This document shows, piece by piece, positions 23,366 through 50,910 of a DNA stretch of 53,476 nucleotides. The stretch spans positions 1 to 53,476 of the forward strand of contig JAIMBE010000002.1 of assembly GCA_023511565.1 (NCBI GenBank), in the 5' to 3' direction. Each line of letters opens with the position of its first letter. Position 1 is the stretch's first letter. Both the position numbers and the translations under genes were made by a program. The notes under the pieces were generated by a model that ran no database searches, was not told where the DNA came from, and worked only from the letters and a program-made list of their open reading frames with translations. This stretch comes from Bacillota bacterium. Its GTDB lineage: Bacteria > Acidobacteriota > Terriglobia > Acidiferrales > UBA7541.

Positions 23366-23401
23366 GGATTCGCTCTCCTTCCTGCAGAGACAAAAACGCC
23401 T

Positions 23402-24283: not shown

Positions 24284-24433
24284 CCGAATGCCTCGTTCTG
24301 TGCGTTGGATGCCGAATTCGGTTATTGCAGCATCGCCGCGCCGGCTATTTTCGCATATCCAGCGCCTTTCTTAGGACGCATTCCGGGCCGCCCAAGATTC
24401 AAACGCGGCGTGTTCGCTCCCACGGTCTCCCGC

Positions 24434-25294: not shown

Positions 25295-25339
25295 CTTCTT
25301 TCCCTCATTGGCAAATCTGCCGTCCGCACCATGCAATCC

Positions 25340-26779: not shown

Positions 26780-26827
26780 CGGCGGCTCCTGCAGCGTTTC
26801 GCTTGCGTTCGCGCTGAAAACCTTCGT

Positions 26828-29083
26828 TCAGAAAATCGTCTCGCGCCGTCGCACCGTGCCGACGGTTCCCAGGTTCGCGATCAACAACGATACACGAAAC
26901 TGGTTGTCGCTGCGGACCGGCCCCAGAGCCAGGCGCCGATACTCAAAGCCGATGCCGCAGCAGGCACCGTTGTAGCTCACCTGCACGACCGTATTCTGGA
27001 AGAAATCGCGATTGACGTCGTAGCTGAGTCCGAACGCAAAATTGAAACCCCGCCGCGCCAGCTCGCCATACCCCACCAACGCGCGAATCTGATTGGAGAG
27101 CGGCTGCAAAACCGGATCGGCGCGTGTCGCAAAGTGCGCCAGCGTGAGGAAGGCTTCCCCGCGGGGCCGCAGTTTGACCAGCGTGCCCACAGCGGTCAGT
27201 TTCCTGCGTGTGGGGTCGTAATCCACCCGGAACTGCGCATCGTACGCACCGCCGGGAGTAACCTTCAAATCGCTCACCAGGGGAGAAAACCGTCGGGGCT
27301 GATCGGCAAAGGCAAACGGCGTGATCGAGTACAGCGCCGCAAACACGTTGCGACGGCCGGGCACTAGCGCACCGCCAAACGTCTTGTCCAGATAGTACTT
27401 CTGGGCCACGCGCCAGCTCAGCCATTCTGTGGTTTCCGTCCCGGAGCGGCGGTAGAGTCGCTGCACAATTCCGTACTCGACCTCGTTCGTATCGGTCAGC
27501 AGATCGTTTTCGTCGAAGCGGAGAAATCGCCCGAACTGGTTGACGCCGTTCACGTATCGGTACACGATCCCGGGCGCGATCACATGTTTCCATTTCGTGC
27601 GCGTCCCCTCCCAGATGCGCGCCAGCGCGGGCGGGCGCGCATCCACGGTGACCTCGGCCGTAGTGCGCCGCACCGGTGCGCCGCTCAGACCGCCTCCGAC
27701 CGCGGGGTCTTGCGAAATGCTGTAGCGGGTTGTGCGAAGCAGAACCGTTGAGCGAACGCCCAGCCACGGGCCCCAGCGCAACGGAATCGTCACGCGCGGA
27801 GCCAGCTCGCTCCGCTGGACAGCTTCCGGCGTTTCCAACAGCGGGTCGCTGCGATGCACGGCATCCACGGCGGCGTGGAATCCGAAATAGATCGGCACGC
27901 GCCGCCAGGGAGCCTGCTCGACCGAACTGAAACGCGCACCGGGCGCTGTGCGCAGCACTACGGCTTGCTCCGGCACCGCACTCAGAAAATTTTTGTACCG
28001 CCGCATGGCAAAACCCAGACTGAAGCCACGGAAATTGTTCGTCAGCGAAGCCGTGCTGCGCACCTCGGACCGGGCCGCCTGATCGAAGGTTTCCGCAAAC
28101 ACCAGCCGAAAGGTGAGCGAGGAAAGCTGATTCACATCGGCCACGGCGCGCCAGCCGTGTGGCAAGTGTGCGTCCAGCTCGAACCGGCTCTGGTAGCCGC
28201 CCTGTTTGATCCGGGTGCCCCCCAGGGTCGCCAGTCCGCGGTCTAGCACAGCAAAGTAGGAGGCATTGACGCGCACCTGCTCCCACGGCCACAGACGCAT
28301 CTCACCCAGATGCCCGAACCCGCGCCGGCTCATCCACTCCACCCCCAGCGTCAGATCCGCCCAGTCCGCCGGCGCCCAGTAAAACGAATTCCCGAGCACG
28401 AATCCTTTCTGCGACTTGTTGCCCACGGTGGGGATCAGGAAGCCAGACTGCCGCGGCCGCTCGGCAATCGGGGCGGTCGCATAGGGAAGATAGATCAGTG
28501 GAATCCGGAAGATACGAAAGTTGGCGTGCAGCAGCACGACCTTGTCGCCCAGTTCGATGCGTGCCTCGGGCGCAAAGAACTGCCACTTGGGACGCTCGGG
28601 CTCGCAGACGGTCAGCCAGGCATCTCTCACCACAAAGCTGCGCGTGCCGGTTCGTTCTACCTCGCGCGCCTCAAAGTACAGTGGATGCACGCTCACCAGC
28701 AACACGGGGCTCGGCTCCCGTTGAAAGCGGATGCTGCCACGCACTCCCTGCAGGCGGCCGCGGCCGGTTTTCAGATTGTAGTGGATGGTTTCCGCCTCAA
28801 GGTGCTGGTCCTGCTGCGTAAACCGGATGTTGCCATCGGCAACCAGCTCGCCGGTTCCGGTGTCGTACTGCAGCCGGTCGGCGCGCAATTCCAGGTCCCC
28901 GTAGCGGATTTCCACGTCACCCTCGGCGTGGTAGACCGTGCCTTCCAGCCGTTGCTGGCGTGCGCGCAGTTCAGCCAGCTCGCCGGCAGCGGGCACACGC
29001 AGCTGCGCACAGACCGGCAGGCTCAGCACCAATCCGAACCAGACGAGCCGGTACAACCATCGCAAACGAACAGCGCACCGCAT
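26828..29083 (-). CDS. lptD: LPS-assembly protein LptD (OstA)
   Basis: This protein of about 751 residues inserts lipopolysaccharide into the outer leaflet of the outer membrane. A signal peptide (cleavage near PVCAQ) is followed by an OstA beta-jellyroll with the repeated pattern AEGDVEIRYGDLELRADRLQY. A long LptD barrel comes next, including LPYATAPIAERPRQSGFLIPT, and the last residue is Phe (RETIF). The presence of LptD shows an LPS-bearing diderm. The start is the ATG at 29083 or a GTG four codons earlier. It heads a leftward run with the amidase and surE, and is divergent from the zinc-ribbon RDD protein gene. Confidence 0.9.
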   Translation of the reverse strand: MRCAVRLRWLYRLVWFGLVLSLPVCAQLRVPAAGELAELRARQQRLEGTVYHAEGDVEIRYGDLELRADRLQYDTGTGELVADGNIRFTQQDQHLEAETIHYNLKTGRGRLQGVRGSIRFQREPSPVLLVSVHPLYFEAREVERTGTRSFVVRDAWLTVCEPERPKWQFFAPEARIELGDKVVLLHANFRIFRIPLIYLPYATAPIAERPRQSGFLIPTVGNKSQKGFVLGNSFYWAPADWADLTLGVEWMSRRGFGHLGEMRLWPWEQVRVNASYFAVLDRGLATLGGTRIKQGGYQSRFELDAHLPHGWRAVADVNQLSSLTFRLVFAETFDQAARSEVRSTASLTNNFRGFSLGFAMRRYKNFLSAVPEQAVVLRTAPGARFSSVEQAPWRRVPIYFGFHAAVDAVHRSDPLLETPEAVQRSELAPRVTIPLRWGPWLGVRSTVLLRTTRYSISQDPAVGGGLSGAPVRRTTAEVTVDARPPALARIWEGTRTKWKHVIAPGIVYRYVNGVNQFGRFLRFDENDLLTDTNEVEYGIVQRLYRRSGTETTEWLSWRVAQKYYLDKTFGGALVPGRRNVFAALYSITPFAFADQPRRFSPLVSDLKVTPGGAYDAQFRVDYDPTRRKLTAVGTLVKLRPRGEAFLTLAHFATRADPVLQPLSNQIRALVGYGELARRGFNFAFGLSYDVNRDFFQNTVVQVSYNGACCGIGFEYRRLALGPVRSDNQFRVSLLIANLGTVGTVRRRETIF

Positions 29084-32832: not shown

Positions 32833-33993
32833 TTACGCTTCGGCACCTTCCAACAGTGCGGCACAATCCACCAGCCGCGCGGCCGTGCCATCGTGAACCG
32901 CATACTGGCGCGGACGCCCTCCACGAGCCGCACCCCACAGCGAAGCCCCGCCATGCACGCCGTCTTTATTCAGCGCGTAGAACAACAGATGGAACCGGCG
33001 CAGCCGCGCGCGATCGTTTCCGTAGTTGCGGGCGACGCGGTGCAGCGCCTCCAGACAGGCTTCGGTCGGCGTCTTTCCCTGCCGCATCATCTCCACAACG
33101 GTGTGCGCGCCATTCACCTTGATGCACTCCTCGCCGCGTCCGGTCGAACCGGCCGCGCCCACATCGTTGTCCACATACAGCCCGGCCCCGATCAGGGGCG
33201 AATCGCCTACGCGCCCGGCAATCTTCCAAGCCAGCCCGGACGTCGTCGTTGTGCCCGCCAGGTTCCCGCGGCCATCCACTGCCAGACAATTGATCGTGCC
33301 CGTGGGCGGATGCAGAACCACCTCACGAATCCACGCCAACCATTCCTCGCGCTCCGCATCGGAAAGCCCCGCAGGCAGCAGCTGGGCGGTGCGCTCCCGC
33401 CACTCCGGACTGTCCAACCCAGGCCCCCAGCTATCGCGGTCGCTCATGGATTCCTTCCAGGCCAGCCAGGCCGTGCGTGCTCGTTCGGTCAGCAGGTTCT
33501 GGCGCTCGAATCCGTGCGCTTCCGCAAAGCGCAGCGCACCCGCACCCACCAGCAGAACATGATCGGTGCGTTCCATCACCAGCCGGGCGACCCGGGAAGG
33601 ATTCTTGATCTCCCGCAGGGAGGCGACTGCGCCGGCACGCCGCGTCGGACCATGCATGACGCTGGCGTCCAGCTCAACAGCGCCGTCTTCGTTCGGCAGG
33701 CCCCCGTAGCCCACCGAGGTGTCGTTCGGGTCGTCCTCGACCACGTTCACTGTCGCCAGCACCGCATCGAGCGGATCGCCGCCCTGTTGCAGAATGGCCA
33801 TGCCGCGGTCGAGCGCACGCAGGCCGTTCGCACTGGACACCATCAGCGGACGCTGGCCCTGGGACACCACACCCGCTTCCACTGGGCCCTGCGCTGCTTT
33901 TGCTTCGGACGTACCCATCAGGCGGCTCACCCCGGCAACCAGCCCGCTCGCCAGTGACGCCAGAAAAAATCGTCGTCGCGTCCAGTCCTTCAT
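32833..33993 (-). CDS. N4-(beta-N-acetylglucosaminyl)-L-asparaginase family Ntn hydrolase, Tat exported
   Basis: This 386-residue precursor starts with a Tat signal (WTRRRFFLAS). The body matches glycosylasparaginase: YGGLPNEDGAVELDASVM, then the self-cleavage site before the nucleophilic Thr in PTGTINCLAVD. AWKIAGRVGDSPLIGAG and GAAGSTGRGE follow. The residue before the nucleophile is Gly, where the classical enzyme has Asp (HDT). The enzyme should split into two chains and hydrolyse asparagine-linked amides or peptides in the periplasm. The ATG at 33993 fits AGGAGG eight bases upstream; a second ATG six bases earlier is possible. It is upstream of the lhgO-like gene. Confidence 0.9.
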   Translation of the reverse strand: MKDWTRRRFFLASLASGLVAGVSRLMGTSEAKAAQGPVEAGVVSQGQRPLMVSSANGLRALDRGMAILQQGGDPLDAVLATVNVVEDDPNDTSVGYGGLPNEDGAVELDASVMHGPTRRAGAVASLREIKNPSRVARLVMERTDHVLLVGAGALRFAEAHGFERQNLLTERARTAWLAWKESMSDRDSWGPGLDSPEWRERTAQLLPAGLSDAEREEWLAWIREVVLHPPTGTINCLAVDGRGNLAGTTTTSGLAWKIAGRVGDSPLIGAGLYVDNDVGAAGSTGRGEECIKVNGAHTVVEMMRQGKTPTEACLEALHRVARNYGNDRARLRRFHLLFYALNKDGVHGGASLWGAARGGRPRQYAVHDGTAARLVDCAALLEGAEA

Positions 33994-34124
33994 GTTCATT
34001 TCCTCCTTGTGCTGATTCCATTGCCCGGACGGCGCAACCGAACCGCCCGGACACGCCGAGACGGGCATGCCGAACCCGCCTGCGTCCACGTCAGCGTCCA
34101 TCCCATCGCCGCGTTGCCTGCGGC

Positions 34125-34805
34125 TCAGCCTTCCTGCGGGCCCAGACCCAGAGGAAGGAAATACTGGGTACCCTTGACCGGCTGCTGCAGCCTCCGCAAC
34201 AACTCCTGCAGGTCCTGGTTGCGCTCCACGAAATCGATCTCCGAGGTGTTCACCACCAGCAAATCGGAAGCCGTGTAGCGGAAGAAGAAATGTTCATAGG
34301 CTTGCGACACCTGCACCAGGTACTCGCGCGAAAGCTGCACTTCGGCCGGATCGGCCTTTTTGCGCACCCGTTGCTCGAGCACGTCCGGTCGGGCCTGCAG
34401 ATAGATCACCAGATCCGGGCGTGGCAGGCCCGCGGCAAACAGATCGTAGTAGCGCTCGTAGAGCTTCAGCTCCGCGTCGTCCAGGCTCAGATAGGCAAAA
34501 ATCTTGTCCTTCTCGAAGAGGAAATCGCTCACCACCGTGCCCGGGGCGTCCCAGTTCACTTCGCGCAGCCGGCGCTGGCGTTCAAACAGAAAGTACATCT
34601 GCGTGCGAAACGCCGCCCCCGGCTTCTCCTCGTAATAGTCGCGCAGGAAAGGATTGTCTTCACAGTCGAAGACACGCCGGGCGTGCAACTTTTCCGCCAG
34701 AAACCGGGCCAGCGTGCTCTTGCCCACCCGGATCGGGCCCTCGATGGCAATAAATCGCGCTGGCTGAAAGGCAGGGATCGTCCGCGGCGCGCTCGAAGAA
34801 ACCAC
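34125..34805 (-). CDS. Deoxynucleoside kinase
   Basis: This 226-residue cytoplasmic kinase phosphorylates deoxynucleosides for the salvage pathway. It has a P-loop (IEGPIRVGKST, residues about 20-30), SDFLFEKDKIFA as the acceptor-side region and RVRKKADPAEVQLSREYL as the Arg-rich lid. These match the bacterial deoxyguanosine/deoxyadenosine kinase family. The GTG start is supported by GGGAG seven bases upstream and by an extended -10 TATAAT at 34844. Substrate preference cannot be assigned. It is a single-gene unit between tnaA and the asparaginase gene. Confidence 0.9.
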   Translation of the reverse strand: MVSSSAPRTIPAFQPARFIAIEGPIRVGKSTLARFLAEKLHARRVFDCEDNPFLRDYYEEKPGAAFRTQMYFLFERQRRLREVNWDAPGTVVSDFLFEKDKIFAYLSLDDAELKLYERYYDLFAAGLPRPDLVIYLQARPDVLEQRVRKKADPAEVQLSREYLVQVSQAYEHFFFRYTASDLLVVNTSEIDFVERNQDLQELLRRLQQPVKGTQYFLPLGLGPQEG

Positions 34806-34843
34806 CAGGCATCTCCCGCAATCGAGCTGGTCAATTCGCGCGG

Positions 34844-34852
34844 ATTATAACA
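34844..34852 (-). promoter_or_regulatory. Extended -10 promoter of the deoxynucleoside kinase gene
   Basis: On the minus strand TGTTATAAT is a perfect extended -10. The leader to the GTG start would be about 30 bases. The -35 region is poor. Confidence 0.55.
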
Positions 34853-34884
34853 GAGGCCCCGGCCCGTGCAGCCGGACGCACCGC

Positions 34885-36273
34885 CTAAGAAGCAGAAGCC
34901 GGGCCCGCTGGACCGGCAGCCTCCGCAGGCCGGAACCGCGCGGTGAAATGGCGGAGAAACGGCGCCTGGTAGGTCAACTCCAGCCCGCGCACCTGTTCCC
35001 GCCGGTTCCACACCTCCAGGACCACTTCCACCACGTAGTCGATATGGCTTTGTGTGTAGACGCGCCGGGGGATCGCCAGCCGCACCAGATCCATCGTCGC
35101 ATGCTCGCCGAACATCAGCGTACCGATTTCCACCGAGCGCACTCCACCCTCGCGATAGAGCTCAGCGGCCAGCGCGACACCAGGAAACTGGCTCGGCGGG
35201 ATATGCGGCAGAAACGCACGGGCGTCGATGTAGATCGCGTGTCCGCCCGGCGGCTGCACAATCGGCACCCCTTCCCGGGCGATGTGCTCGCCCAGATAGG
35301 CCGTCGAAACGATGCGGTAGTGCAGATACTCCTCGTCGAGTGCTTCGTTCAATCCCACGGCAATCGCTTCCAGGTCGCGACCGGCCAACCCGCCATAGGT
35401 CGGGAAGCCCTCGGTCAGAATCAACAGGTCCTTTTCCTGCTGGGCCAGCGCATCGTCATTCGTGCACAGAAATCCGCCGATATTGGCCAATCCGTCTTTC
35501 TTGGCGGACATCGTGCAGCCGTCTGCATAGGAAAACATCTCCCGGGCGATTTCGCGCGGGGTCTTGTGGGCATAGCCCGGCTCACGCAGCTTGATGAAAT
35601 AGGCGTTTTCGGCAAACCGGCAGGCATCCAGATAGAGCGGGATGCCCTGTTCCCGGCAGATCTGCTTCACCTCGCGGATGTTGGCCATGGAGACGGGCTG
35701 GCCGCCACCGGAGTTGTTGGTCAGTGTCAGCATCACCAGCGGGATGCGCTCGCGTCCGACGCGCGCGATCAGCTCACGCAGCCGCGCTGTATCCAGGTTT
35801 CCTTTGAAAGGATGGGGCGATGCAGGGGCGAGCGCCTCCGGCACAGGGAGGTCCACGGCTTCGGCGCCCACAAATTCGCAGTTCGCCCGCGTGGTATCGA
35901 AGTGCGTGTTGTTGGGCACCACGTCGCCCTTCTTACACATCACGGTGAACAGAATCCGCTCGGCAGCGCGACCTTGGTGGGTCGGGATCACATGTCGGAA
36001 ACCGAAAATGGACTGCACCGCGTCTCGGAAACGCGTGAAGCTGGGCGAACCGGCATAGGACTCATCGCCGCGCATCATTGCGGCCCACTGCTCGGTGGAC
36101 ATCGCGTTGGTCCCCGAATCCGTCAGCAGATCGATCAGGATGTACTCCGCCGGAACCAGAAACAGGTTGTAGCCGGCTTCCTCCAACAACGCCTCGCGCT
36201 GTTTCCGCGTCGTCTTGCGAATCGGTTCGACGGTCTTGATTCGAAACGGCTCGATAATGGTCTTGATCGCCAT
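34885..36273 (-). CDS. tnaA: Tryptophanase (beta-eliminating lyase)
   Basis: This 462-residue PLP enzyme splits L-tryptophan to indole, pyruvate and ammonia. The PLP Lys is in SAKKDGLANIGG near residue 257, and THQGRAAE and LDACRFAENAYFI are family signatures. Two positions favour tryptophanase over tyrosine phenol-lyase: HFDTTR at the substrate loop, and VEIGTLMFG where the phenol-lyase has an Arg. No tnaC-like leader peptide or tnaB permease is adjacent. A candidate -10 (TAGAAT, 36301-36306) and GAGG upstream support the ATG at 36273. It fits the amino-acid-degrading theme of this region. Confidence 0.88.
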   Translation of the reverse strand: MAIKTIIEPFRIKTVEPIRKTTRKQREALLEEAGYNLFLVPAEYILIDLLTDSGTNAMSTEQWAAMMRGDESYAGSPSFTRFRDAVQSIFGFRHVIPTHQGRAAERILFTVMCKKGDVVPNNTHFDTTRANCEFVGAEAVDLPVPEALAPASPHPFKGNLDTARLRELIARVGRERIPLVMLTLTNNSGGGQPVSMANIREVKQICREQGIPLYLDACRFAENAYFIKLREPGYAHKTPREIAREMFSYADGCTMSAKKDGLANIGGFLCTNDDALAQQEKDLLILTEGFPTYGGLAGRDLEAIAVGLNEALDEEYLHYRIVSTAYLGEHIAREGVPIVQPPGGHAIYIDARAFLPHIPPSQFPGVALAAELYREGGVRSVEIGTLMFGEHATMDLVRLAIPRRVYTQSHIDYVVEVVLEVWNRREQVRGLELTYQAPFLRHFTARFRPAEAAGPAGPASAS

Positions 36274-36857: not shown

Positions 36858-39080
36858 CTACCACTCGCGCGCGAGCACAGTGATCATCCGGGCCAGCGCT
36901 TCGGCGTCGCGCACGTCAATCACTTCACCCGGTGAGTGCGAGTACCGCAGAGGCCAGCCAAGGGGAATATCCACCGTCCCGCTGCGCAAAAACGCCGCCC
37001 CATCGTTGCCGCCGCCGGTCACGCCAAACTGTGCGGGAATGCCATGCCGCTGCGCCAGGGCCAGGACCCGGTCCACCAGCTCCCGGCGCACAATATTGGA
37101 ATTGTCCACCGCGCGCACAACGAACCCTTTACCGATTTCCCCGTATCCGAAACGTTTCTCTTCGAGCGGCGAATCCGAACTGACAAAGGTGTCCACGGCG
37201 AAAACGTAGTCCGGTGCGCGCCCTTCCCGCGCCAGCCGTGTGGCCAGCGCAAACGCTCCGCGCAGGCCCACTTCCTCTTCGGTCACCCAGGCCAGAAGGA
37301 CTTCACGGCCGGTCAGGTTCGGTCCGAGCGCCCACGCCGCGGCAATCAACGCCGCCGAGCCGACGCGGTCGTCGAAGCTGCGCCCGTTGGCTCGCGTACC
37401 GAACAGCGGGCGGTATTTTTTCGGCACGGTCAGCGAATCACCGACCCGGATGCCTAGCTCGGCGACCTGTTCCGGAGTGCGCGCCCCTACATCCACGCGC
37501 AGCACACTGGCAGGCCCGCGCGGCCAGTCGAATTCCGGCTCCTCCCAACCTGCCGGCAGCTCCAGCACAGCTGCGCGCGGCCCCTGCACGGTGTGCACGA
37601 GCAGGGCGTGGCCCGCAAAGAACTGCAGAATGCCTCCCCCGCGCGACCGCACCACCAGCCGACCATCCGGTGCCACCGACTCCACCACGAAACCAATCTC
37701 GTCCATGTGCGCGACAAACGCAATGCGCGGCACGCGGGATCCTGCGGGCGCATCCCCGATGCGCAAAATCAGATTTCCAGCATCGTCGGTTTCCGGCTTG
37801 GCCCAGGGCGGCAGCAAATCGGCGATGCGTTCCCGCACCGGACCCTCGTGCCCGCTCACACCGTAGGCTTCGACCAGGTTTCGGAGCAGCTCGGGCATCT
37901 GCGGCGCCGCTGTCGGCCGACCGGGCAACCGGTTTCCTGGGGAAGCGGCGTCACCCGCTGCACCCCTGTTCCTGATTTCTCCCGAGGCGTAGGCTTCCAA
38001 TAAACCGCTGAGCTGACCCAGGTCGGCAAAATCGAGCATTTCCGCCGGCGTCACAGGCCAAGCCAACGGAATCGAGAGCTGAACCATGCGCGCGGGCAGC
38101 TCGGGCCCACCGGTGTAGCTGGCCCGCGGCAGCGGTGCCGCCGGCACAGGCCGGAGCGGAATCTTGTGCGTTTCTGCAAGCGCAACCATTTCTCCGGCAA
38201 ACCCACCCGGCGCCGCTTCCGACCGCTCCATGGCCAGCAGCACGCCGGCACCCGGTTCCGGCATCGCTGCTGTGCCGGCCCCGCGTGGACGCAGCCGGCC
38301 GACATAAACCAGCTCATCGGCGCGGATGCGTTGCGTCAACCGGTCGAGCCCGCGGGAGTTCGTCCACTGCTGCGCGAGAAACGCCACCGTCAGCGTACCG
38401 CGCAGGCGCGTGCGGTCCACTCGCCGCAGCAACTCGAGCAGCGCAGCCGCGCCGAAGCGGTCCCCCAGATACGGCGCCGTCACCTTGCCAAAGCCCATCA
38501 CGAGCAACTGCCGCTCGAGCGCAATCGGGTCCAGCAAACCCACACCCGCCCTGCGAACGTCTTCGGCGCTGGCGGCGCCGATGTCCACATACACTTCATC
38601 CGGGTGAGCGACCCGCGGCGGAGTCCGCCGCCCGCCCTGCAGGTGCGTGGACAGTCCGGCGACTACACCGGAAACCCACCGGCCCTCCCGCGTGTGAATC
38701 ACCACGGGCTGGGCCGCATGGAGCTGTTCAAACAGCGGATGGACACCGGACTGCGGCAGCCGCTGCACGCGCAGGTAGCCGTTGTCGGTGATGTGGCTGA
38801 CGATGTAGCCTGGCTCATCCACCGGCGCAACCACGAGCCGGTGCGGCGCGCCACTGCCGAGGGTGACGTAGAGCGTGCCGAGGTGGTCCTGTTCGAGCGC
38901 GTAGCCGGCGGCGCGGGCGCGCTCGCGAATCTTCTCTGCCAGCGCCTGCTCGTAGCCGGTCACCGCCGGCGTCTCCACCAGCGTCGCCAAATCCTCGTGC
39001 AGGCTCTGCGCGGCAGCGGGCACAGCCAGTCCGGTGCCCGACAAGACGAAGAGGCACAGTGTGGCGAGGGTGTGATGCAT
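36858..39080 (-). CDS. Tandem M42-family aminopeptidase with a degenerate N-terminal copy, exported
   Basis: The product of about 740 residues has a signal peptide (cleavage near PAAAQ) and two peptidase M42-like halves (about 25-360 and 395-740). The second half has every metal ligand: His and Asp in AHMDEIG, Asp in SFDDRVGSA, the Glu pair in TEEEVGLRGA, Asp in VDTF and His in YSHSPGEVID. In the first half the matching sites read APVDEPG (His lost) and AQQWTN (Glu pair lost), though DRFGAA keeps the Asp. It therefore looks like one active and one pseudo-enzyme domain in a single chain. M42 enzymes remove N-terminal residues from peptides. The ATG at 39080 has GGAGGAG upstream. It is divergent from the P1 peptidase gene. 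Confidence 0.9.
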   Translation of the reverse strand: MHHTLATLCLFVLSGTGLAVPAAAQSLHEDLATLVETPAVTGYEQALAEKIRERARAAGYALEQDHLGTLYVTLGSGAPHRLVVAPVDEPGYIVSHITDNGYLRVQRLPQSGVHPLFEQLHAAQPVVIHTREGRWVSGVVAGLSTHLQGGRRTPPRVAHPDEVYVDIGAASAEDVRRAGVGLLDPIALERQLLVMGFGKVTAPYLGDRFGAAALLELLRRVDRTRLRGTLTVAFLAQQWTNSRGLDRLTQRIRADELVYVGRLRPRGAGTAAMPEPGAGVLLAMERSEAAPGGFAGEMVALAETHKIPLRPVPAAPLPRASYTGGPELPARMVQLSIPLAWPVTPAEMLDFADLGQLSGLLEAYASGEIRNRGAAGDAASPGNRLPGRPTAAPQMPELLRNLVEAYGVSGHEGPVRERIADLLPPWAKPETDDAGNLILRIGDAPAGSRVPRIAFVAHMDEIGFVVESVAPDGRLVVRSRGGGILQFFAGHALLVHTVQGPRAAVLELPAGWEEPEFDWPRGPASVLRVDVGARTPEQVAELGIRVGDSLTVPKKYRPLFGTRANGRSFDDRVGSAALIAAAWALGPNLTGREVLLAWVTEEEVGLRGAFALATRLAREGRAPDYVFAVDTFVSSDSPLEEKRFGYGEIGKGFVVRAVDNSNIVRRELVDRVLALAQRHGIPAQFGVTGGGNDGAAFLRSGTVDIPLGWPLRYSHSPGEVIDVRDAEALARMITVLAREW

Positions 39081-39206
39081 CTCTCCTCCTTCTCCAGGCC
39101 CAGGCACTGCAGCCGCCAATCTATCCCGCGAAGTTCAGATGCGCAACGGTCGCCCCATCGCTCTGCGGCCCGCGCAAGTTCCCTGTGCTGCTCCCGCCGA
39201 TGGACG

Positions 39207-39212
39207 TACAAT
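39207..39212 (+). promoter_or_regulatory. -10 candidate for the P1 peptidase gene
   Basis: TACAAT (five of six) lies 40 bases upstream of the ATG. No good -35 accompanies it. Confidence 0.25.
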
Positions 39213-39252
39213 CTGCCGAGGGAGTTTCTCGTTTCCTGACGGAGGTAAGGCG

Positions 39253-40431
39253 ATGCGCTGGTTCGGAGTTTTCATCCTGGCAGGCGGACTGGCAGGCGGA
39301 ACGTGGACGCGAATCGTTGCGGGCCCACCACCGGCGGTTCGCACAGCCGAATCACAGGCCGAGGCGCGACCCCGCGCGCGGGACCTTGGCATCGCTCCCG
39401 GTTCGTTCGAGCCCGGGCCGTGGAATGCCATCACCGACGTGGCCGGCGTGCGCGTCGGCCACGCGACGATCGTCTCCGGCGAAGAAGTTCGCACGGGTGT
39501 CACCGCTATTCTTCCCCACAGCGGCAATCTGTACCGCGAAAAAGTCGCCGCCGCGATGCACATCGCCAACGCCTTTGGCAAGCTCGTTGGCTCAACCCAG
39601 GTCGTGGAGCTCGGCCAGTTGGAAACGCCCATCCTGCTCACGAACACGCTCAGCGTATGGGACGCAGCCGCCGCACTGGCCGAGTGGATGCTCGCGCTGC
39701 CGGGCAACGAATCCGTACGTTCGATCAACCCCGTGGTCGGCGAAACCAACGACGGATGGCTGAACGACATCCGCGGACGACACGTGCGCGCTGAGCACGT
39801 TCGCCAAGCCCTGGCCGCCGCCACGACCGGCCCGGTCGCAGAAGGTTCGGTCGGCGCCGGCACCGGCACGGTCGCCTTCGGTTGGAAAGGAGGGATCGGC
39901 ACCAGCTCCCGCCACGTTCGCACGGGCGGCGCCGACGGTACGACCTACACGGTCGGTGTGCTGGTGCAAACGAATTACGGTGGCCGGCTGACCATTGCCG
40001 GGGTGCCGGTGTGGCAACACGTGCAGCCGCCGCGTCGCGATGAAGGAGAGGATGGCTCCTGCATGATGGTCGTGGCCACGGACGCCCCGCTCGATTCCCG
40101 CCAGCTACGTCGCCTGGCTGCGCGCGCCATTCTCGGCATGGCCCGCACCGGCGCCTCCGGCAGCCACGGCAGCGGCGACTACGTGATCGCCTTTTCAACC
40201 ACCAACCGCATCCGCAGCGCAGCGTTCAACGAAGCAGCTCCTTCCGCTCCCGTCGAACTGCTGCACGAAGAACGGCTCTCGCCCCTGCTGCTTGCGGTCA
40301 GTGACGCCACCGAGGAAGCCATCTACAACTCGCTGTTCCGCGCGACCCCTGTGCGCGGCCGCGCCGGTCACACTGCCGAAGCCATTCCAATAGCCCCCGT
40401 GCGGGAACTTCTGCGGCAGTCCGGACGTTAG
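39253..40431 (+). CDS. P1 (DmpA/S58) family peptidase, exported
   Basis: This 392-residue protein begins with a signal peptide, and the mature part opens with GPWNAITDVAGVRVGHATI, typical of the family. The self-processing and catalytic Ser is near residue 269 in GEDGSCMMVVATDAPL. NPVVGETNDGWLND is another signature. DmpA-type enzymes cut themselves into two chains and act as D- or beta-aminopeptidases on small peptides. GGAGGTAAG directly upstream fixes the ATG at 39253. It is divergent from the tandem M42 gene, suggesting coordinated peptide breakdown. Confidence 0.92.
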   Translation: MRWFGVFILAGGLAGGTWTRIVAGPPPAVRTAESQAEARPRARDLGIAPGSFEPGPWNAITDVAGVRVGHATIVSGEEVRTGVTAILPHSGNLYREKVAAAMHIANAFGKLVGSTQVVELGQLETPILLTNTLSVWDAAAALAEWMLALPGNESVRSINPVVGETNDGWLNDIRGRHVRAEHVRQALAAATTGPVAEGSVGAGTGTVAFGWKGGIGTSSRHVRTGGADGTTYTVGVLVQTNYGGRLTIAGVPVWQHVQPPRRDEGEDGSCMMVVATDAPLDSRQLRRLAARAILGMARTGASGSHGSGDYVIAFSTTNRIRSAAFNEAAPSAPVELLHEERLSPLLLAVSDATEEAIYNSLFRATPVRGRAGHTAEAIPIAPVRELLRQSGR

Positions 40432-40446: not shown

Positions 40447-42081
40447 TCATCCTTTGCCGAGTTCGCTGGTGAGAACCTCGCGCATGCGCTCAGCCAGCCG
40501 CGAAGAGTACTCGAGCGACCAGCCGTACAGCCAGCCACCCAGGGCAGCGAGAACAACGAAAACCACCCCGGCCAGCCATACGGTCATCGAACGGAAGGCA
40601 ACGAGGAAAATCAAGGTGCAGATTCCCAGCACAACCAACTGCGTGACCATCAGCACCAGCGCCGTCATACCCGACTGGTGCTGCCGGAACTTGCCGAAGT
40701 CGAACCGCCGAGGATAGGCCAACGACATGTAGTTCCCAACCGAAAAATGCACCAGCAGGACAAAGGCCAGAGCCGCCAGCGTCACCAGAGTCAAGCCGGG
40801 GCGCGGCCACCCCGCATACCCACCGATCCACAACCAGAGGACGACGATCTCCACGGCCCAAATCAGACCCAGGAGCAGATTTTTTCCGAGCAACACTTCG
40901 CGGAATCGTACTGGCGCAACCAGAAAAAACTGTATGCCCCGCCCATCAAACGCAAAACTGTTGTAGCCGATCGGCGCAAGCACCAGCACCGCGTAGCCGA
41001 CCGCCATCGGGAACAGCACGTCCGGCCCTCGGTTCAGAAACCCAGATCCCTCATTGGGGGTTGTGGCCATGGTCAGAAACACAAGAAAGGCGAGCGGGAC
41101 GAACAGGTTCAGCAGGGCAACGCCGTTTCGCCACAGATAGCGAACCTCCTTGCTGAACACCGCAGCGACCGGAGGCGAAACCCCGGGCAGTTCCCAGACG
41201 AGTTCTCCGACGGCTTTCCCTTTCGCCGGCGGCGCTGGCCGTGGGGCCGTCGTCTCGCCCACATCTTCCCCGCGGTACTGGGCCAGCAGCCGGCGCCGCA
41301 AAAACCAGCCGCAGCCGGCCGCGTACGCGCCCAGCAGTGCCAGTGCACCCAGCAACGTGCCGGGACTCCCGCGGTCCACGACCGCCGTGCCCACCAGTCC
41401 AGGCGGCAGAATCTGCATCCATTCGGATACCTGCTGCAGCAACGGTGCGGCACTTCTCCCCCAGCGCTCCGCCGCCAGTCCCACAAACTGCAGACCGAAC
41501 ATGGCTAGAATGAAAGCCAGGAACAGAGCTTCCCGTGTCCGACGCCGCGTCAGCAGTCGCTCCAACCAGAGATAGAGCAGCCGGTTCAACAACAACGAGA
41601 ACAGCGCAAACCCCAGAAGCAGCAGAGCCGTGGCCGCAAGCCCCTGGGGCGCAGCCAGTCCCACTCCGACCAGCACACCGGCCAGCCAGGCCAGCGCAGT
41701 GATCCCCGCCGGATCCAACACTCCATGGGCCAGATGCAACAGAAAAAAAGTGTGGAAGCGCAGCGGCAGCACCAGAAGCCCCCGAAAGCTGATGCCGGAA
41801 GCAAACGCTGCGAGCACCAACGGCAGCAGTTGCCAGACCAGAAAAATGCTCCAGAGCAGAATGGTAAGCGGCTGCGGAGAGCCTCTGCGCACCGCCGCGT
41901 AGCTGACCGCGGCAAACCCCAACAGGCCACCCAGCACCACCAGCGCTCCGAGGCCGGCGATCAGCAGCGTGCCCATCAGCTCGAGTTGGGCCCGCTCGCT
42001 GCGCAGGCTGTTACGCAGCAGCCGCCACCGTAGCTCGGCCACCAACCCCACCTGCTGCCAGACGCTCGGGCCTGTCCTCAT
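40447..42081 (-). CDS. ABC transporter permease (ABC-2 type)
   Basis: This 544-residue integral membrane protein has about 12 hydrophobic segments in two halves, split by a cytoplasmic linker rich in Pro, Ala and Lys near residues 280-300. Its ATG overlaps the stop codon of the upstream ATP-binding protein gene by four bases (ATGA), so the two are translationally coupled and form one transporter. No substrate motif is visible. Export of a lipid, drug or polymer is typical for this architecture. Confidence 0.85.
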   Translation of the reverse strand: MRTGPSVWQQVGLVAELRWRLLRNSLRSERAQLELMGTLLIAGLGALVVLGGLLGFAAVSYAAVRRGSPQPLTILLWSIFLVWQLLPLVLAAFASGISFRGLLVLPLRFHTFFLLHLAHGVLDPAGITALAWLAGVLVGVGLAAPQGLAATALLLLGFALFSLLLNRLLYLWLERLLTRRRTREALFLAFILAMFGLQFVGLAAERWGRSAAPLLQQVSEWMQILPPGLVGTAVVDRGSPGTLLGALALLGAYAAGCGWFLRRRLLAQYRGEDVGETTAPRPAPPAKGKAVGELVWELPGVSPPVAAVFSKEVRYLWRNGVALLNLFVPLAFLVFLTMATTPNEGSGFLNRGPDVLFPMAVGYAVLVLAPIGYNSFAFDGRGIQFFLVAPVRFREVLLGKNLLLGLIWAVEIVVLWLWIGGYAGWPRPGLTLVTLAALAFVLLVHFSVGNYMSLAYPRRFDFGKFRQHQSGMTALVLMVTQLVVLGICTLIFLVAFRSMTVWLAGVVFVVLAALGGWLYGWSLEYSSRLAERMREVLTSELGKG

Positions 42082-42905
42082 GCCAACCAGGAAAGCTCTT
42101 GCTCGGTGGTACGCGTACCCCCCACGATTTCCAGGAAAATCTGCTCCAGCGTCAGCTTCTCCCCGCTCGGGCGTACCGGTTTCCCTTCGTCGGCGACGGC
42201 AAACGCGATCTTCGATTCCACCCCGGAACGCAGTTCCTCAATCGAGCCCTGCGCGACCAGCTTCCCCTTGTGAATGATGGCCACATGGCTGCACAGACGC
42301 TCGACGATTTCCAGCACGTGCGAGGTCAGGAAAATTGTGACCCCGCGCGCAATCATCCGATTCAGCATGTTCTTCAGCGTGCCGGCGGCGATGGCATCCA
42401 CACCTTCGAACGGCTCGTCGAGAAACAGAACCTTCGGTCCGTGAATCACGGCGGCGGCCAGGGCCAGTTTCTTTTTCATCCCGTGGGAATAATCGGCGAT
42501 CAGGGTCTTCGGACGGTCGGCGAGCTGCATGAACTCCAGCAGCTCCTGGGCGCGCTGGGCTGCGGTCCCGCGGTCTAGCCCGTACATGCGGGCGACGAAA
42601 TGCAAATACTCAAAACCCGTCAACCGGTCAAACAACGCCAGGCCCTCGGGCACGACGCCAATCTGCCGCTTCACCTCGACCGGATCCTGCTGCAGGTCGG
42701 TGCCCAGAATCACAATGCGCCCTGCCGTCGGCTCCAGTAAACCGGTCAGCATGCGGATCGTCGTGGACTTGCCGGCACCGTTCGGCCCGAGGAATCCGAA
42801 AAACTGCCCGGTGCCAACCGTCAGGTTGACTCCGTCCACGGCCACCAGCTCGCCGAACCGCCGCGTCAGATTTTCCGTGAAAATGGCGCGGGCGTTTGTC
42901 GTCAT
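42078..42905 (-). CDS. ABC transporter ATP-binding protein
   Basis: This 275-residue ATPase has a complete Walker A (GPNGAGKST), a Q-loop (IGVVPEG), a degenerate signature YSHGMKKK (usual LSGGQ-like site), Walker B (VLFLDEP) and the switch His in TSHVLE. The domain order matches exporter-type subunits acting with ABC-2 permeases. The start is the ATG at 42905 or a GTG two codons earlier. It is coupled to the downstream permease gene by a four-base overlap. The signature motif is unusual, but YSHGM and YSKGM variants are known in this subfamily. Confidence 0.92.
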   Translation of the reverse strand: MTTNARAIFTENLTRRFGELVAVDGVNLTVGTGQFFGFLGPNGAGKSTTIRMLTGLLEPTAGRIVILGTDLQQDPVEVKRQIGVVPEGLALFDRLTGFEYLHFVARMYGLDRGTAAQRAQELLEFMQLADRPKTLIADYSHGMKKKLALAAAVIHGPKVLFLDEPFEGVDAIAAGTLKNMLNRMIARGVTIFLTSHVLEIVERLCSHVAIIHKGKLVAQGSIEELRSGVESKIAFAVADEGKPVRPSGEKLTLEQIFLEIVGGTRTTEQELSWLA

Positions 42906-43038
42906 GGCCACACAGCCGTTCGGCAGATGCCCAAAAAGAAGGACGTTCGAGCCACGGTGTCGCGACCCAAAGGCGCGTCAGCCCCAGCAGGAAAGAAGCA
43001 GGCAGGAGCCGGTGCGCAGTCGGGAACTGGCCCAAACA

Positions 43039-45156: not shown

Positions 45157-45193
45157 GCGGCAGCCCCGTACCCGTTTGCTGCGGAACACCTTC

Positions 45194-46357
45194 ATGCACA
45201 CCCTGATGGTGAGTCAGGTGTACGATCCCTTCCACCATCTGGGCGGACCCGCCTTCAAGGTCCGCGCGCTGGCCGAACACCTGGCCCGCCGCGGCCACAG
45301 CGTCGTGGTGCTGACCACCTCCCTCGGCTCACAGCAGCCACCAGGCCGGACCTGGCAGGGACCGGTGGAGGCCATCTATCTGAAGCCGTGGCTCCGCTAC
45401 CGCACCACGACCTGGAACGCCGGCCTGGTCGCCTTCTGCCGCCGCGAACTGCGCCACTTCGATCTGGTGCACATCTTCGGACTTTATGACCTGCTCGGGC
45501 CACTGGTCGCCCGCTTCTGCCGCCGCTGGCAGATTCCCTATCTGATCGAACCGCTCGGCATGACCCGGCCGATCGACCGCAGCTTCCGGCTCAAGCGTTT
45601 CTGGCACTGGCTGGTCGGCCGCGACTACCTGCACGGCGCGCACGCCTTGGTGGCTACCTCCGAGCAGGAATACGAAGAACTGCTTGCAGAAGGTTTTCCC
45701 GCCCGGCAGCTCTTGCTGCGCTACAACGGCATTGACCTGAACCAGTTCGCCGATCTGCCCCCGCAGGGCGCGTTCCGCCGCACGCACGGCATTCCGACCG
45801 AGGAGCCACTGCTGCTTTTCCTCGGCCGCCTGATTCCGCGCAAAGGCGCTGATCTGGCCATCGAAGCCTTTGCCCGCGCCCTCCCGGCCAACGGACGCCT
45901 GGTAGTTGCCGGTCCTGAAGGCGAACCCGGATACCTGCGCCGGCTGCGCAAGCAAAGCGAACAACTCGGTTGTGCTGCGCGCGTGCTTTTTCCCGGGCCC
46001 TTGTTGGATCGCGAAAAGCTCGAAGCACTGGTGGACGCGGACGTCTTTCTACTGCCCTCGCGTTACGAGAATTTTGCCAACACAGTCGTCGAAGCGGTGG
46101 CCTGCGGCACACCGGTCATCATCACCAAGCAATGCGGCATCAGCCGGTTGGTGCAGGATCGCGTCGGTCTGGTCATTCCGCGCGAGGTGCCGGCGCTGGC
46201 CAATGCCATCCACCGGCTGCTGACCGATGCCGCATTGCGCGACCGCTTCCGCTCCGCATGCCACGACCTTGCCACGGCGCTTAGCTGGGATACACTAGCC
46301 CAGGTCACCGAACAGCAGTACCAAAAGGTACGCACACACCGGCATGCTGGCTGCTGA
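45194..46357 (+). CDS. Glycosyltransferase family 4
   Basis: This 387-residue GT-B glycosyltransferase has an N-terminal acceptor domain (LGGPAFKVRALAEHLARRGH). The C-terminal nucleotide-sugar domain has LFLGRLIPRKGADLAIEAF, and the EX7E-type region is in PSRYENFANTVVEAVACGTPVI. It should add a sugar from an NDP-sugar to a growing glycan at the cytoplasmic face of the membrane. The ATG at 45194 is preferred over a TTG six codons earlier. It opens the polysaccharide cluster, and its end overlaps the methyltransferase gene by 14 bases, so they are cotranscribed. Confidence 0.9.
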   Translation: MHTLMVSQVYDPFHHLGGPAFKVRALAEHLARRGHSVVVLTTSLGSQQPPGRTWQGPVEAIYLKPWLRYRTTTWNAGLVAFCRRELRHFDLVHIFGLYDLLGPLVARFCRRWQIPYLIEPLGMTRPIDRSFRLKRFWHWLVGRDYLHGAHALVATSEQEYEELLAEGFPARQLLLRYNGIDLNQFADLPPQGAFRRTHGIPTEEPLLLFLGRLIPRKGADLAIEAFARALPANGRLVVAGPEGEPGYLRRLRKQSEQLGCAARVLFPGPLLDREKLEALVDADVFLLPSRYENFANTVVEAVACGTPVIITKQCGISRLVQDRVGLVIPREVPALANAIHRLLTDAALRDRFRSACHDLATALSWDTLAQVTEQQYQKVRTHRHAGC

Positions 46358-47087
46358 AGCAGGCAACTTCTATGACGAGTACCCGTTCGACTGGACCGAA
46401 CGGTATCGTCCTGCCGAACTGGCCACGGTCATTTCCCCGGTGCTGATACGGTTACTGGACCGCCTCGCGCCGAATGCATTCGTGCTCGACGTAGGCTGTG
46501 GCCCCGGGCGAGTGATGACGTACCTGGCATATCGGCAGATCCGTGCGCTGGGTGTGGACCGCAGCTTCGCTTCCGTCGTTCTGATGCAGCAGCGCTGTCA
46601 GCTTCCCGGCATCGTGGCGGACAACCTGGCGCTGCCACTGGCTGGGGGCACGGCCGACCTAGTCATTTCCGACGGGGTGCTGCATCACACCGAGGATCCG
46701 GCACTAGCTTTTGCCGAACTGTGCCGGATGCTGCGACCCGGAGGGCTGCTGTTCCTCGCCGTGTACCGGCCCGGGGGCCACTACGAATGGCTGTACCATT
46801 TTCCTGGAAGTGTGTTTCGCCGGGCGGTGCGGCACCGGCTGACGCGCGCGCTGGTGCATGCCACCGCATTGCCGCTCTACTACCTGGTGCACGTGCTGCG
46901 TTCGCCACGCAAGCGTTCCTGGCGTGGCGCGCGGAACCTTTTTTACGACTACTTCGTTACGCCGCGTGTCCATTTTCTCCGGCGCGACACCATCGAACAG
47001 TGGTGCCGCCGCTGCGGCGTCCGGCTGGTGGAGTTTCACCCACGACCCATCGGCAACGTGCAGGCCTTCGTGATCGAGAAACAGTGA
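46344..47087 (+). CDS. Class I SAM-dependent methyltransferase
   Basis: The 247-residue product has motif I FVLDVGCGPGRV near residue 47, an acidic loop ALGVDRSF and SDGVLHHTEDP as the post-motif. CRMLRPGGLLFLAVY is typical of this fold. It probably methylates a sugar or a lipid-linked intermediate, since it lies inside a glycan cluster. It starts inside the end of the preceding glycosyltransferase gene, which implies translational coupling. Confidence 0.9.
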   Translation: MLAAEAGNFYDEYPFDWTERYRPAELATVISPVLIRLLDRLAPNAFVLDVGCGPGRVMTYLAYRQIRALGVDRSFASVVLMQQRCQLPGIVADNLALPLAGGTADLVISDGVLHHTEDPALAFAELCRMLRPGGLLFLAVYRPGGHYEWLYHFPGSVFRRAVRHRLTRALVHATALPLYYLVHVLRSPRKRSWRGARNLFYDYFVTPRVHFLRRDTIEQWCRRCGVRLVEFHPRPIGNVQAFVIEKQ

Positions 47088-47184
47088 TCGCCAGAAACGA
47101 ACACGCTCCATTCCGGCGCTGCGTCGGTGCCCGCAGCCGCTCCGCGCTGCTGCGGCGAAACTGCGGTTCCGAGGCCACCCCCTG

Positions 47185-49143
47185 ATGTGCGGCATCTGTG
47201 GCATCGTCGGACCCGCAGTCGCGGCTCGCACCGCCCACTCAGAAGCCGGTGTCCGCAGGATGATGGCCGCGCTCGCCCACCGTGGGCCGGATGACGAAGG
47301 GCTGCTGGTGGACCCGCCCGTTGCCTTCGGCATGCGCCGGCTGAGCATCATCGATCTTGCCGGCGGACGCCAGCCCGTCTTCAACGAAGATGGCTCCGTA
47401 GGCGTCGTACTGAACGGAGAAATCTACAACTACCAACACCTGCGCGCGGTGCTGGAATCGCTGGGGCACCGCTTCCGCACCCATTCCGACACCGAAACGG
47501 TCGTCCACGCCTACGAACAGTGGGGCACGGACTGTGTCCGGTACCTGCGCGGGATGTTCGCCTTCGCCGTGGTCGAGCGGGCGCGTGACGACAGCCGTCG
47601 ACCGCTCCGCGTTTTGCTGGCGCGCGATCGTCTGGGCATCAAACCGCTCTATTACACTCTTGTAGAGGGCAACCTGCTGTTCGCCTCCGAAGTTCGCGCT
47701 CTGCTCGCCAGCGGCTGGATGACCCGGAGGCTGAACCCGACGGCACTCGAAAGTTACCTGTTGTTCGGCTCGGTCGGCGAACCCGAAACCTTACTCGAAG
47801 GCATCTACTCGCTTCCTCCCGGCGAAACAGCCTCCATCCCCTTGTACACGGAACAGCCGGTCACCTTGCAGACCGAACGCTACTGGTCGGCCCACGAAGT
47901 CGCACCCCGAGCCATTTCGTCTCCTCGCCGCAGACGGACTCTCCAGCACGTTCACGAACAGGTTCGCGAGGCACTCGAGCAATCGGTCCGACTGCATCTG
48001 CTGGCCGATGTGCCTGTCGGCATCTTCCTCAGCAGCGGTCTGGATTCGACGGCCGTCGCGGCACTCGCTGCACGGCTGCATCCAGGTATCCACACGTTCA
48101 CTGTGGTCTTTCCCGAAGCGGATTACAGCGAATCAGCCCTGGCGCAGCAGATCGCTCGCCACCTGCAAACGACCCACCGAGAACTGATCCTGACCGGGGA
48201 AGAGATGCTCGCCCACGTCGATGCCGCCGTTGCGGCTCTCGACCAGCCCAGCATGAACGGCATCAACACTTACTTTGTTTCCTGGGCTGTCCGCCAGGCG
48301 GGCCTGAAAGTGGCGTTGTCGGGCCTGGGAGGTGACGAGGTCTTTGGCGGCTACCGCACGTTTCACTCCGCCCCCTGGCTTGAACGTCTGGGCCGCTTGG
48401 CAAACCTGCTGCCCGGTACGGTGCGCGCCGCGCTGACCCCGCTGCTGCAGCGCGCCACCACCAGCCCTGATGCGCAACGCAAACTGCTCGCCGCCTGGCG
48501 GAATCCGGGGATGCTGCCGCACCCGTTCTACTTCGCCCGCCTGCTGTTCGCGCCCGAACAGGTCGGAACCCTGCTCCGCGATGCCGGCGCATCGGACAGC
48601 ACCTGGCGCCGCTGGCTCGGCCGGGCCGCCGCAGAAAGTGCTGGCTGGGATGCGTTCAGCCGCACGGGTTGGCTGGAGATGCGATCCTATCTGGTGAACA
48701 CTCTGCTGCGGGACACCGACGCGATGAGCATGGCACACTCGCTCGAAGTGCGCGTTCCCCTGCTCGACCATGTACTCGTGGAGACCGTCACCCGGCTGCC
48801 TGCCCCGACAAAAAGGCGCCCGGGCCGCCCGAAGGCCCTACTCGTGGAATCGCTGGGAGCGCTTTTGCCGGCGGAAGTCGTTCGCCAGCCCAAGCGCACC
48901 TTCACGCTGCCCTGGGAACACTGGTTGCGCGGGCCGTTGCAAGAAAATGTCGCGGCCCATCTTCAGCGATTGACACCGGCACTGAAAGCAGCTCTAAATG
49001 AATGGGCCGTGCGGCAGGTGTGGGAAGAGTTTCTGGCGCGGCGCACCCTCTGGTCCCGTCCCTGGAGCCTGTTTGTGCTGAACGCCTGGGTGCAACGACA
49101 CATCGAAAGCAACGATCCAGCGGGCTCGGCCCGTCCCGACTGA
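47185..49143 (+). CDS. asnB: Asparagine synthase (glutamine-hydrolysing)
   Basis: This 652-residue enzyme has Cys2 as glutaminase nucleophile (MCGICGIVG) and the class II amidotransferase core (LAHRGPDDEG, LNGEIYN). The synthetase half has the ATP pyrophosphatase loop LSSGLDSTAVA near residue 280 and LSGLGGDEVFGGY. The reaction uses glutamine and ATP to amidate a carboxyl group, normally aspartate. In polysaccharide clusters, AsnB homologues often act on sugar acids or linked amino acids, so the substrate here may be a glycan component; this is inference. A 97-base gap precedes it, and the carbamoyltransferase gene follows after only 3 bases. Confidence 0.93.
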   Translation: MCGICGIVGPAVAARTAHSEAGVRRMMAALAHRGPDDEGLLVDPPVAFGMRRLSIIDLAGGRQPVFNEDGSVGVVLNGEIYNYQHLRAVLESLGHRFRTHSDTETVVHAYEQWGTDCVRYLRGMFAFAVVERARDDSRRPLRVLLARDRLGIKPLYYTLVEGNLLFASEVRALLASGWMTRRLNPTALESYLLFGSVGEPETLLEGIYSLPPGETASIPLYTEQPVTLQTERYWSAHEVAPRAISSPRRRRTLQHVHEQVREALEQSVRLHLLADVPVGIFLSSGLDSTAVAALAARLHPGIHTFTVVFPEADYSESALAQQIARHLQTTHRELILTGEEMLAHVDAAVAALDQPSMNGINTYFVSWAVRQAGLKVALSGLGGDEVFGGYRTFHSAPWLERLGRLANLLPGTVRAALTPLLQRATTSPDAQRKLLAAWRNPGMLPHPFYFARLLFAPEQVGTLLRDAGASDSTWRRWLGRAAAESAGWDAFSRTGWLEMRSYLVNTLLRDTDAMSMAHSLEVRVPLLDHVLVETVTRLPAPTKRRPGRPKALLVESLGALLPAEVVRQPKRTFTLPWEHWLRGPLQENVAAHLQRLTPALKAALNEWAVRQVWEEFLARRTLWSRPWSLFVLNAWVQRHIESNDPAGSARPD

Positions 49144-49146
49144 CCC

Positions 49147-50907: not shown

Positions 50908-50910
50908 CCG

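Follow-up and report, generated by a model that had tools for sequence, protein, structure and literature searches.

The M42 aminopeptidases of the TET type (PhTET1, PhTET2, PhTET3, PfTET3 and TmPep1050) are built from single-domain subunits, each of which carries both a metal site and a loop histidine. In human M18 DNPEP, which is homomeric and has both subunits catalytic, the substrate carbonyl is held by His170 from the opposing subunit, so that the active site is loop-swapped, and the His170Phe mutant is inactive; its authors extended this trans-acting role to M42, the same histidine being conserved there (PMC3472314). The equivalent residue in PhTET2 is His123, located on a mobile loop and occupied by histidine in 88% of the family alignment, and its mutants have an affinity for substrate that is lower, at most by one order of magnitude (PMC8993905). 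In the dimers of both families, the loop histidine of the partner subunit is thus described as completing each active site (PMC3472314, PMC8993905). The dimer of PfTET3 is bridged by R311/Y312 to D137 of the partner subunit, and metals stabilise TET oligomers, their loss leading to dimers or monomers (PMC4745047). Two hetero-oligomers of M42 paralogues are on record, namely the PhTET2-PhTET3 heterododecamer (PMC4220976) and YtoP-YsdC of B. subtilis (PMC10090944, PDB 9a5r). Both resemble the protein studied here in bringing two M42 paralogues together, but in the former the two members are active and assemble as homodimer blocks (PMC4220976), and the latter is a cross-linked paralogue dimer (PMC10090944); neither is described in these papers as a fused pair of one dead and one live half. 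Dead and live homologous halves, in adjacent genes or in one chain, do occur in M16 (mitochondrial processing peptidase alpha/beta, TTHA1264/1265, fused M16A/C and FusC/PqqL), where a loop of the dead half is important for substrate binding (PMC11266112, PMC12731061). A search of the open full-text literature returned no description of a dead/live M42 pair, and “M42” is absent from the main text of a 2024 review on inactive metallopeptidases.

The locus described here lies on the minus strand of a window of 53,476 nucleotides, the whole stretch of DNA that was analysed. It consists of one open reading frame that can be divided as follows.

36858..39080, minus strand: tandem M42 gene, 740 amino acids in one open reading frame, stop included
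39006..39080, minus strand: probable Sec signal peptide, residues 1-25, MHHTLATLCLFVLSGTGLAVPAAAQ, read from the sequence by eye
37986..39005, minus strand: N-half, a catalytically dead M42 domain with PDZ-like dimerisation domain (PF05343, AF2, VIA-align)
37899..37985, minus strand: linker, residues 366-394, poorly conserved (AF2 confidence, nonsynonymous proportion)
36861..37898, minus strand: C-half, an M42 aminopeptidase domain with intact active site (phmmer, VIA-align)

The start codon is the ATG at 39080, with a strong Shine-Dalgarno sequence ahead of it (aaggaggagag-ATG), and the stop is at 36858. By eye, residues 1-25 contain a hydrophobic core and then AAAQ, and similar N-termini are present in relatives and in both partners of split pairs; the 740-residue protein is apparently exported. 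The initial annotation had claimed two M42 domains in one chain, and Pfam agrees, since PF05343 (Peptidase_M42) matches two stretches (E 1e-83), with 281 bits for the whole chain against a curated cut-off of 23.2 and the best stretch at 448-731. The N-half alone scores 106.3 bits (E 2e-30) and is thereby an M42 homologue, while phmmer relates the C-half to PhTET1 (2cf4/2wyr, E 1.9e-46). The tandem gene provides the sole M42 matches in the source assembly, which is 90.8% complete. An assembly fault or chance can be ruled out as the origin of the tandem because the nearest relative, G001, carries the same two-domain gene at 84-86% identity.

The alignment places the residues of both active sites at the following positions.

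38823..38825, minus strand: P86, replacing the first metal-ligand His
38463..38465, minus strand: G206, replacing the bridging Asp
38364..38369, minus strand: Q238-W239, replacing the catalytic Glu and the metal-ligand Glu
38298..38300, minus strand: G261, replacing the metal-ligand Asp
38052..38054, minus strand: V343, replacing the last metal-ligand His
37707..37709, minus strand: H458, metal ligand of the active half
37371..37373, minus strand: D570, bridging metal ligand
37272..37277, minus strand: E602 (general base) and E603 (metal ligand)
37191..37193, minus strand: D630, metal ligand
36936..36947, minus strand: R712-Y713-S-H715, comprising the equivalents of the PfTET3 R311/Y312 dimer bridge and the last metal-ligand His

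It can be observed that the C-half retains all five metal ligands (H458, D570, E603, D630 and H715) as well as the catalytic E602, as the initial annotation had stated. In the matching columns of the N-half, the ligands are replaced by P86, G206, W239, G261 and V343 and the general base by Q238, leaving only D88, the Asp of H-x-D. The earlier description of this half as having lost the first His and the Glu pair was therefore right but understated, all six residues being gone, and no alternative set of intact ligands was found in the window's N-half on the alignment. Judged by these residues, the N-half is classed as an M42 non-peptidase homologue, with 0/5 ligands and Gln as general base, and the C-half as an M42 peptidase by homology and ligands, departing from the family in its loop histidine, in place of which it has W512.

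Structure prediction of the whole chain, which had been proposed as a check, yielded two M42 folds with pLDDT 93.2 and pTM 0.92. The latter value implies confident mutual placement of the halves, which are predicted by AF2 to pack together, and confidence in the full model is lowest across the linker (block means 77 and 59). For the N-half alone, pLDDT was 89.6 and pTM 0.90; its best PDB match was PhTET1 2wyr (VIA-align Z 37.1, rmsd 2.4, 313 aligned), to which the C-half of the full model was also fitted (Z 42.4, rmsd 2.1, 325 aligned). In these models both halves retain the full M42 fold, including the PDZ-like domain, and in this they are like the TETs, to which they also conform in the complete ligand set of the live half, in the recognisable loop-histidine and dimer-bridge residues and in PhTET1 as best match. 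The difference from the TETs is that the metal site and the loop histidine are here split between the halves. Neither half has the M16 fold with HXXEH, both being M42 by sequence and fold, so the likeness to M16 is one of architecture only; M16 is of an unrelated fold and clan and forms an endopeptidase clamshell, whereas a clan MH dimer with a donated histidine is proposed here.

Comparison of this genome with its nearest relative gave dN/dS values (Nei-Gojobori) of 0.136 for the N-half, 0.102 for the C-half and 0.52 for the signal peptide, and the nonsynonymous proportion, at 0.07 and 0.06 for the halves, was 0.46 in the linker. Purifying selection thus acts on the N-half. Conservation of the first half had been named beforehand as the sign of selection, and a fusion found only here with decaying sequence as the sign against it; the former is what the ratio indicates, and the latter does not apply, since the pair recurs. 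In a scan of named-species genomes, 92 relatives of the N-half were obtained and 80 kept, mostly from Acidobacteriota (Terriglobia, including Terriglobus roseus DSM 18391, T. albidus and Granulicella), the rest being some Gammaproteobacteria/Steroidobacteraceae and one Hymenobacter. A single open reading frame of at least 600 amino acids holds both halves in 71 of these 80 loci, and the remaining 9 are cut by contig ends or frame-shifted. With the N-half profile, 62 of the 396 genomes of the phylum gave a match at E 1e-20, a count that includes ordinary M42s, and the pair is present in 29 of 40 regions examined from those genomes. Within the gammaproteobacterial order, 13 of 196 genomes match, 7 of them (the centre included) strongly and of tandem type and 6 weakly. 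Among the matches listed for the Bacteroidota sample (345 genomes, 169 matching), only M42 frames of single-domain length were present, the Hymenobacter centre aside. The family search thus rejects confinement of the fusion to this genome: the dead and live pair, as a fused gene or as two adjacent genes, is found in Acidobacteriota, some Gammaproteobacteria and one Hymenobacter. The tandem M42 also occurs in records labelled Proteobacteria, Gammaproteobacteria, Muproteobacteria or Steroidobacteraceae, at L087, L092-L096, L098, L099, L101-L103, L105 and L108.

For residue counts, 127 loci were sorted into 105 with both halves, 10 solitary M42s and 12 with one half only. The last group consists mostly of contig-end cuts and frameshifts, plus L180 and L092; the live half of L092 was merged with the identical L094 row, and the cut live halves of L107 and L173 were too short or merged. 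The solitary M42s (L001 and nine others) were tallied separately, and L180 was left out of the 105-pair and 80%-identity live counts. No broken pairs occur among the sorted loci except those cut by contig ends or frameshifts. The number of metal ligands kept in 111 long dead domains is none in 90, one in 13, two in 4 and three in 4, and none of the dead domains in the 105 pairs that can be read at this column still has the ligand Glu (W239 in the window). In f28, the partners L176 and L177 retain the first His together with both the bridging and the third Asp, and the f22 partners the first His, the last His and the third Asp; with up to three of five ligands, these distant dead partners are marked as intermediates. 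Such variation in metal-ligand state, together with the loss of the catalytic residues, is what a decaying duplicate or neutral passenger might display. That explanation is nevertheless contradicted, and is regarded as extremely improbable, in view of the dN/dS of 0.136, the retention of the N-half phylum-wide in every pair whose locus is neither cut nor frameshifted, and the invariance of two residues in the dead half, the loop His and the dimer-bridge Asp.

The first of these residues, and the position from which it has disappeared in the C-half, are as follows.

38643..38645, minus strand: His146, equivalent of PhTET2 His123 and human DNPEP His170, proposed trans donor (column counts)
37545..37547, minus strand: W512 in the C-half loop, where the loop His was lost (alignment)

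The loop His occurs in 104 of 105 dead halves (with a gap in the remaining one) versus 1 of 105 live halves, and in 10/10 solitary M42 controls from the same phylum. It is also found in L180, an active M42 that is likewise solitary and whose branch lies close to the live clade. The column is occupied in live halves by Trp (66/105) or Tyr (26/105), and the one exception with His is L155. Some rows are near-copies, and the counts were hence repeated at 80% identity, giving 94/95 for dead halves (1 gap), 1/75 for live halves and 10/10 for solitary enzymes. It should be noted that 1 in 105 does not stand for 105 independent events, as the loss in live halves may be a single ancestral event. Another histidine of the live-half loop could also substitute for the lost one, being found in 4/75 live halves within ten columns around the site and in 21/75 somewhere in the loop (80% identity). 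The block scores of the His loop rise from 77 and 53 in the model of the N-half alone to 95 and 81 in the full chain, a gain that is only suggestive since the alignments differed (68 and 30 rows). Since the loop His has been preserved in the dead half but not in the live one, the earlier suggestion of a substrate-holding domain is supported in part, and is sharpened to that of an in-trans donor of a substrate-stabilising residue. The pattern suggests that the dead copy persists by lending the live active site the His that the live copy lost.

The second invariant residue belongs to the dimer bridge.

38583..38585, minus strand: D166, equivalent of PfTET3 Asp137, the dimer-bridge Asp (104/105 N-halves, 1 gap)

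The bridge Asp is found in 104/105 dead versus 50/105 live halves, while the bridge Tyr is found in 93/105 live versus 22/105 dead and the bridge Arg in 70/105 live versus 20/105 dead; in solitary M42s, the Arg, Tyr and Asp are each present in 10/10. On the tree, 11 changes of this Asp are counted in the 44 live rows, against none in the 45 dead ones. This splitting of the salt bridge is a trend, not a rule, because Arg311 is only moderately kept in live halves (70/105) and still occurs in 20/105 dead ones. At the oligomer interface, the equivalents of PfTET3 Gln206 and Arg212 are retained in 83 and 71 of 95 dead representatives and in 15 and 9 of 76 live ones, the live set still including solitary L180. 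The window's own C-half is not extreme, as it still has D530 at the place of the bridge Asp and R607 at that of the oligomer Arg. Judged by these residue counts, each interface seems to have turned one-sided, like that of an obligate heteromer. Such uneven loss of residues at the dimer and oligomer interfaces agrees with a heteromeric assembly, and to that extent the “changed assembly” of the initial annotation finds partial support.

The same interface counts would agree with a dead half that is mainly an architectural subunit, filling half of the TET-like positions or capping the dimer, and so setting pore size or blocking the dodecamer with nothing specific to the active site. In its favour, the oligomer-interface equivalents Gln206/Arg212 are split between dead and live halves, and a metal-free half should weaken the dodecamer because metals stabilise TET oligomers (PMC4745047). 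However, it leaves unexplained why it should be the dead half that retains the trans-acting loop His and the live half that lacks it, and we consider it unlikely. The former pocket of the dead half could alternatively have acquired a new function, binding a substrate tail, a wall component or a regulator. In Terriglobia this pocket is conserved in a new form (G-D-R, Q-Q-W and V-G-R motifs), and N-half counts among the 105 pairs are 79 for Gly at the bridging Asp, 68 for Gln at the general base, 64 for Trp at the Glu ligand and 75 for Gly at the third Asp. Yet the motifs vary from lineage to lineage (RRY in f3, QSW in f58 and QTK in certain split pairs), and the dead halves hence have no one new pocket in common; the features that they all do share are the loop His and two Asp residues, that of the bridge and that of H-x-D. 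A new function of this kind is accordingly held to be quite doubtful.

Donation of the loop His between halves can also be considered together with the history of the pair. In several families (G025, G032, G430, G150, G254, G209 and others) the halves are encoded separately in adjacent genes, and the N-terminus of each is hydrophobic and resembles a signal. The dead gene precedes the live one in split pairs, the order being reversed only in f38 (G241, G368), and f28 and f52 each contain both fused and split forms. By parsimony, which here does not tell fusion and fission apart, the fused or split state changes 6 times on the tree of dead rows (26 fused, 19 split) and 5 times on that of live rows (23 fused, 21 split). 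The fused genes are likely annotated simply as M42 peptidase, which hides the arrangement. In the tree, a branch with SH-aLRT 100 separates 45 dead domains from the live and solitary ones, so that the dead copies form one clade. Distances within dead and within live halves correlate with r 0.93 over 86 loci, a value reached in 0/999 permutations, and this is what co-inherited partners should give. The sampled gammaproteobacterial L087 and L098 nest inside Terriglobia in both half-trees, which suggests horizontal transfer.

The neighbourhood of the gene in the window includes three genes whose relatives recur near tandem M42s.

42078-42911, minus strand: ABC-transporter ATPase
40447-42081, minus strand: permease-like gene
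34125-34805, minus strand: deoxynucleoside kinase (PF01712, by Pfam), downstream

Relatives of the ATPase and permease-like genes were found at no fewer than 28 of the 80 named loci (at least 28/80), just upstream of the tandem M42 in most rows, and a relative of the kinase at at least 23/80; these counts are lower bounds because many loci have short flanks. The recurrent transporter and kinase neighbours were examined for a clue to the substrate, and no substrate follows from them. Divergent between the ABC genes and the tandem M42 is a P1/S58 peptidase (39139-40431, plus strand), which we take to be of the DmpA type, with a relative in 7/80 named loci. The stretch 32833-36273 (minus strand) encodes an isoaspartyl-peptidase-like protein (Asparaginase_2) with a twin-arginine-like start (RRRFF), next to M42, and a beta-eliminating lyase (tryptophanase-like), also beside it; with M42, these genes make a cluster rich in peptide and amino-acid degradation. 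Farther away, two glycosyltransferases, a methyltransferase, an asparagine synthase and a carbamoyltransferase stand in a row at 45176-52122 (plus strand), a probable surface-sugar gene cluster. A 1494-residue open reading frame at 22883-27367 (plus strand) has no Pfam match at E 1e-5 and may not be a gene, long overlapping frames being common in the window.

As described above, the residue patterns point to an apparently exported M42 aminopeptidase that has probably become an obligate heterodimer of a dead and a live half, fused here, in which His146 would complete the live site in trans. The ancestral M42 would have been based on a homodimer, each subunit having a dinuclear metal site and a loop His reaching into the site of its partner. 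An ancient duplication would then have been followed by a division of labour between the two copies: the C-half kept the metals and the general base and lost the loop His, while in the N-half the metals were lost but the loop His was retained, as was the PDZ-like dimerisation domain. The halves would pair as a canonical M42 dimer with one metal site per pair, into which His146 of the dead half would enter and stabilise the substrate, and the protein would be exported and act as an aminopeptidase on peptides. On balance we lean towards a broader proposition, that this is an ancient, phylum-wide class of aminopeptidase with a split active site, in which a pseudoenzyme is kept solely for completion in trans, the loop His never acts within its own subunit, and fused and split forms have arisen several times around one obligate heterodimer.

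If true, the pair would amount to a natural mixed-dimer experiment on whether the M42 loop His works between subunits. In the papers examined, the question of whether this usually disordered histidine acts on its own or on the neighbouring site rested on the M18 structure and on mutants. With the His and the metals on different chains, evolution would answer the question and make it directly testable. M42 would furthermore be the second metallopeptidase fold, after M16, with a dead/live two-gene pair and repeated fusion or fission, and the pair would offer an asymmetric TET building block that common soil bacteria already make.
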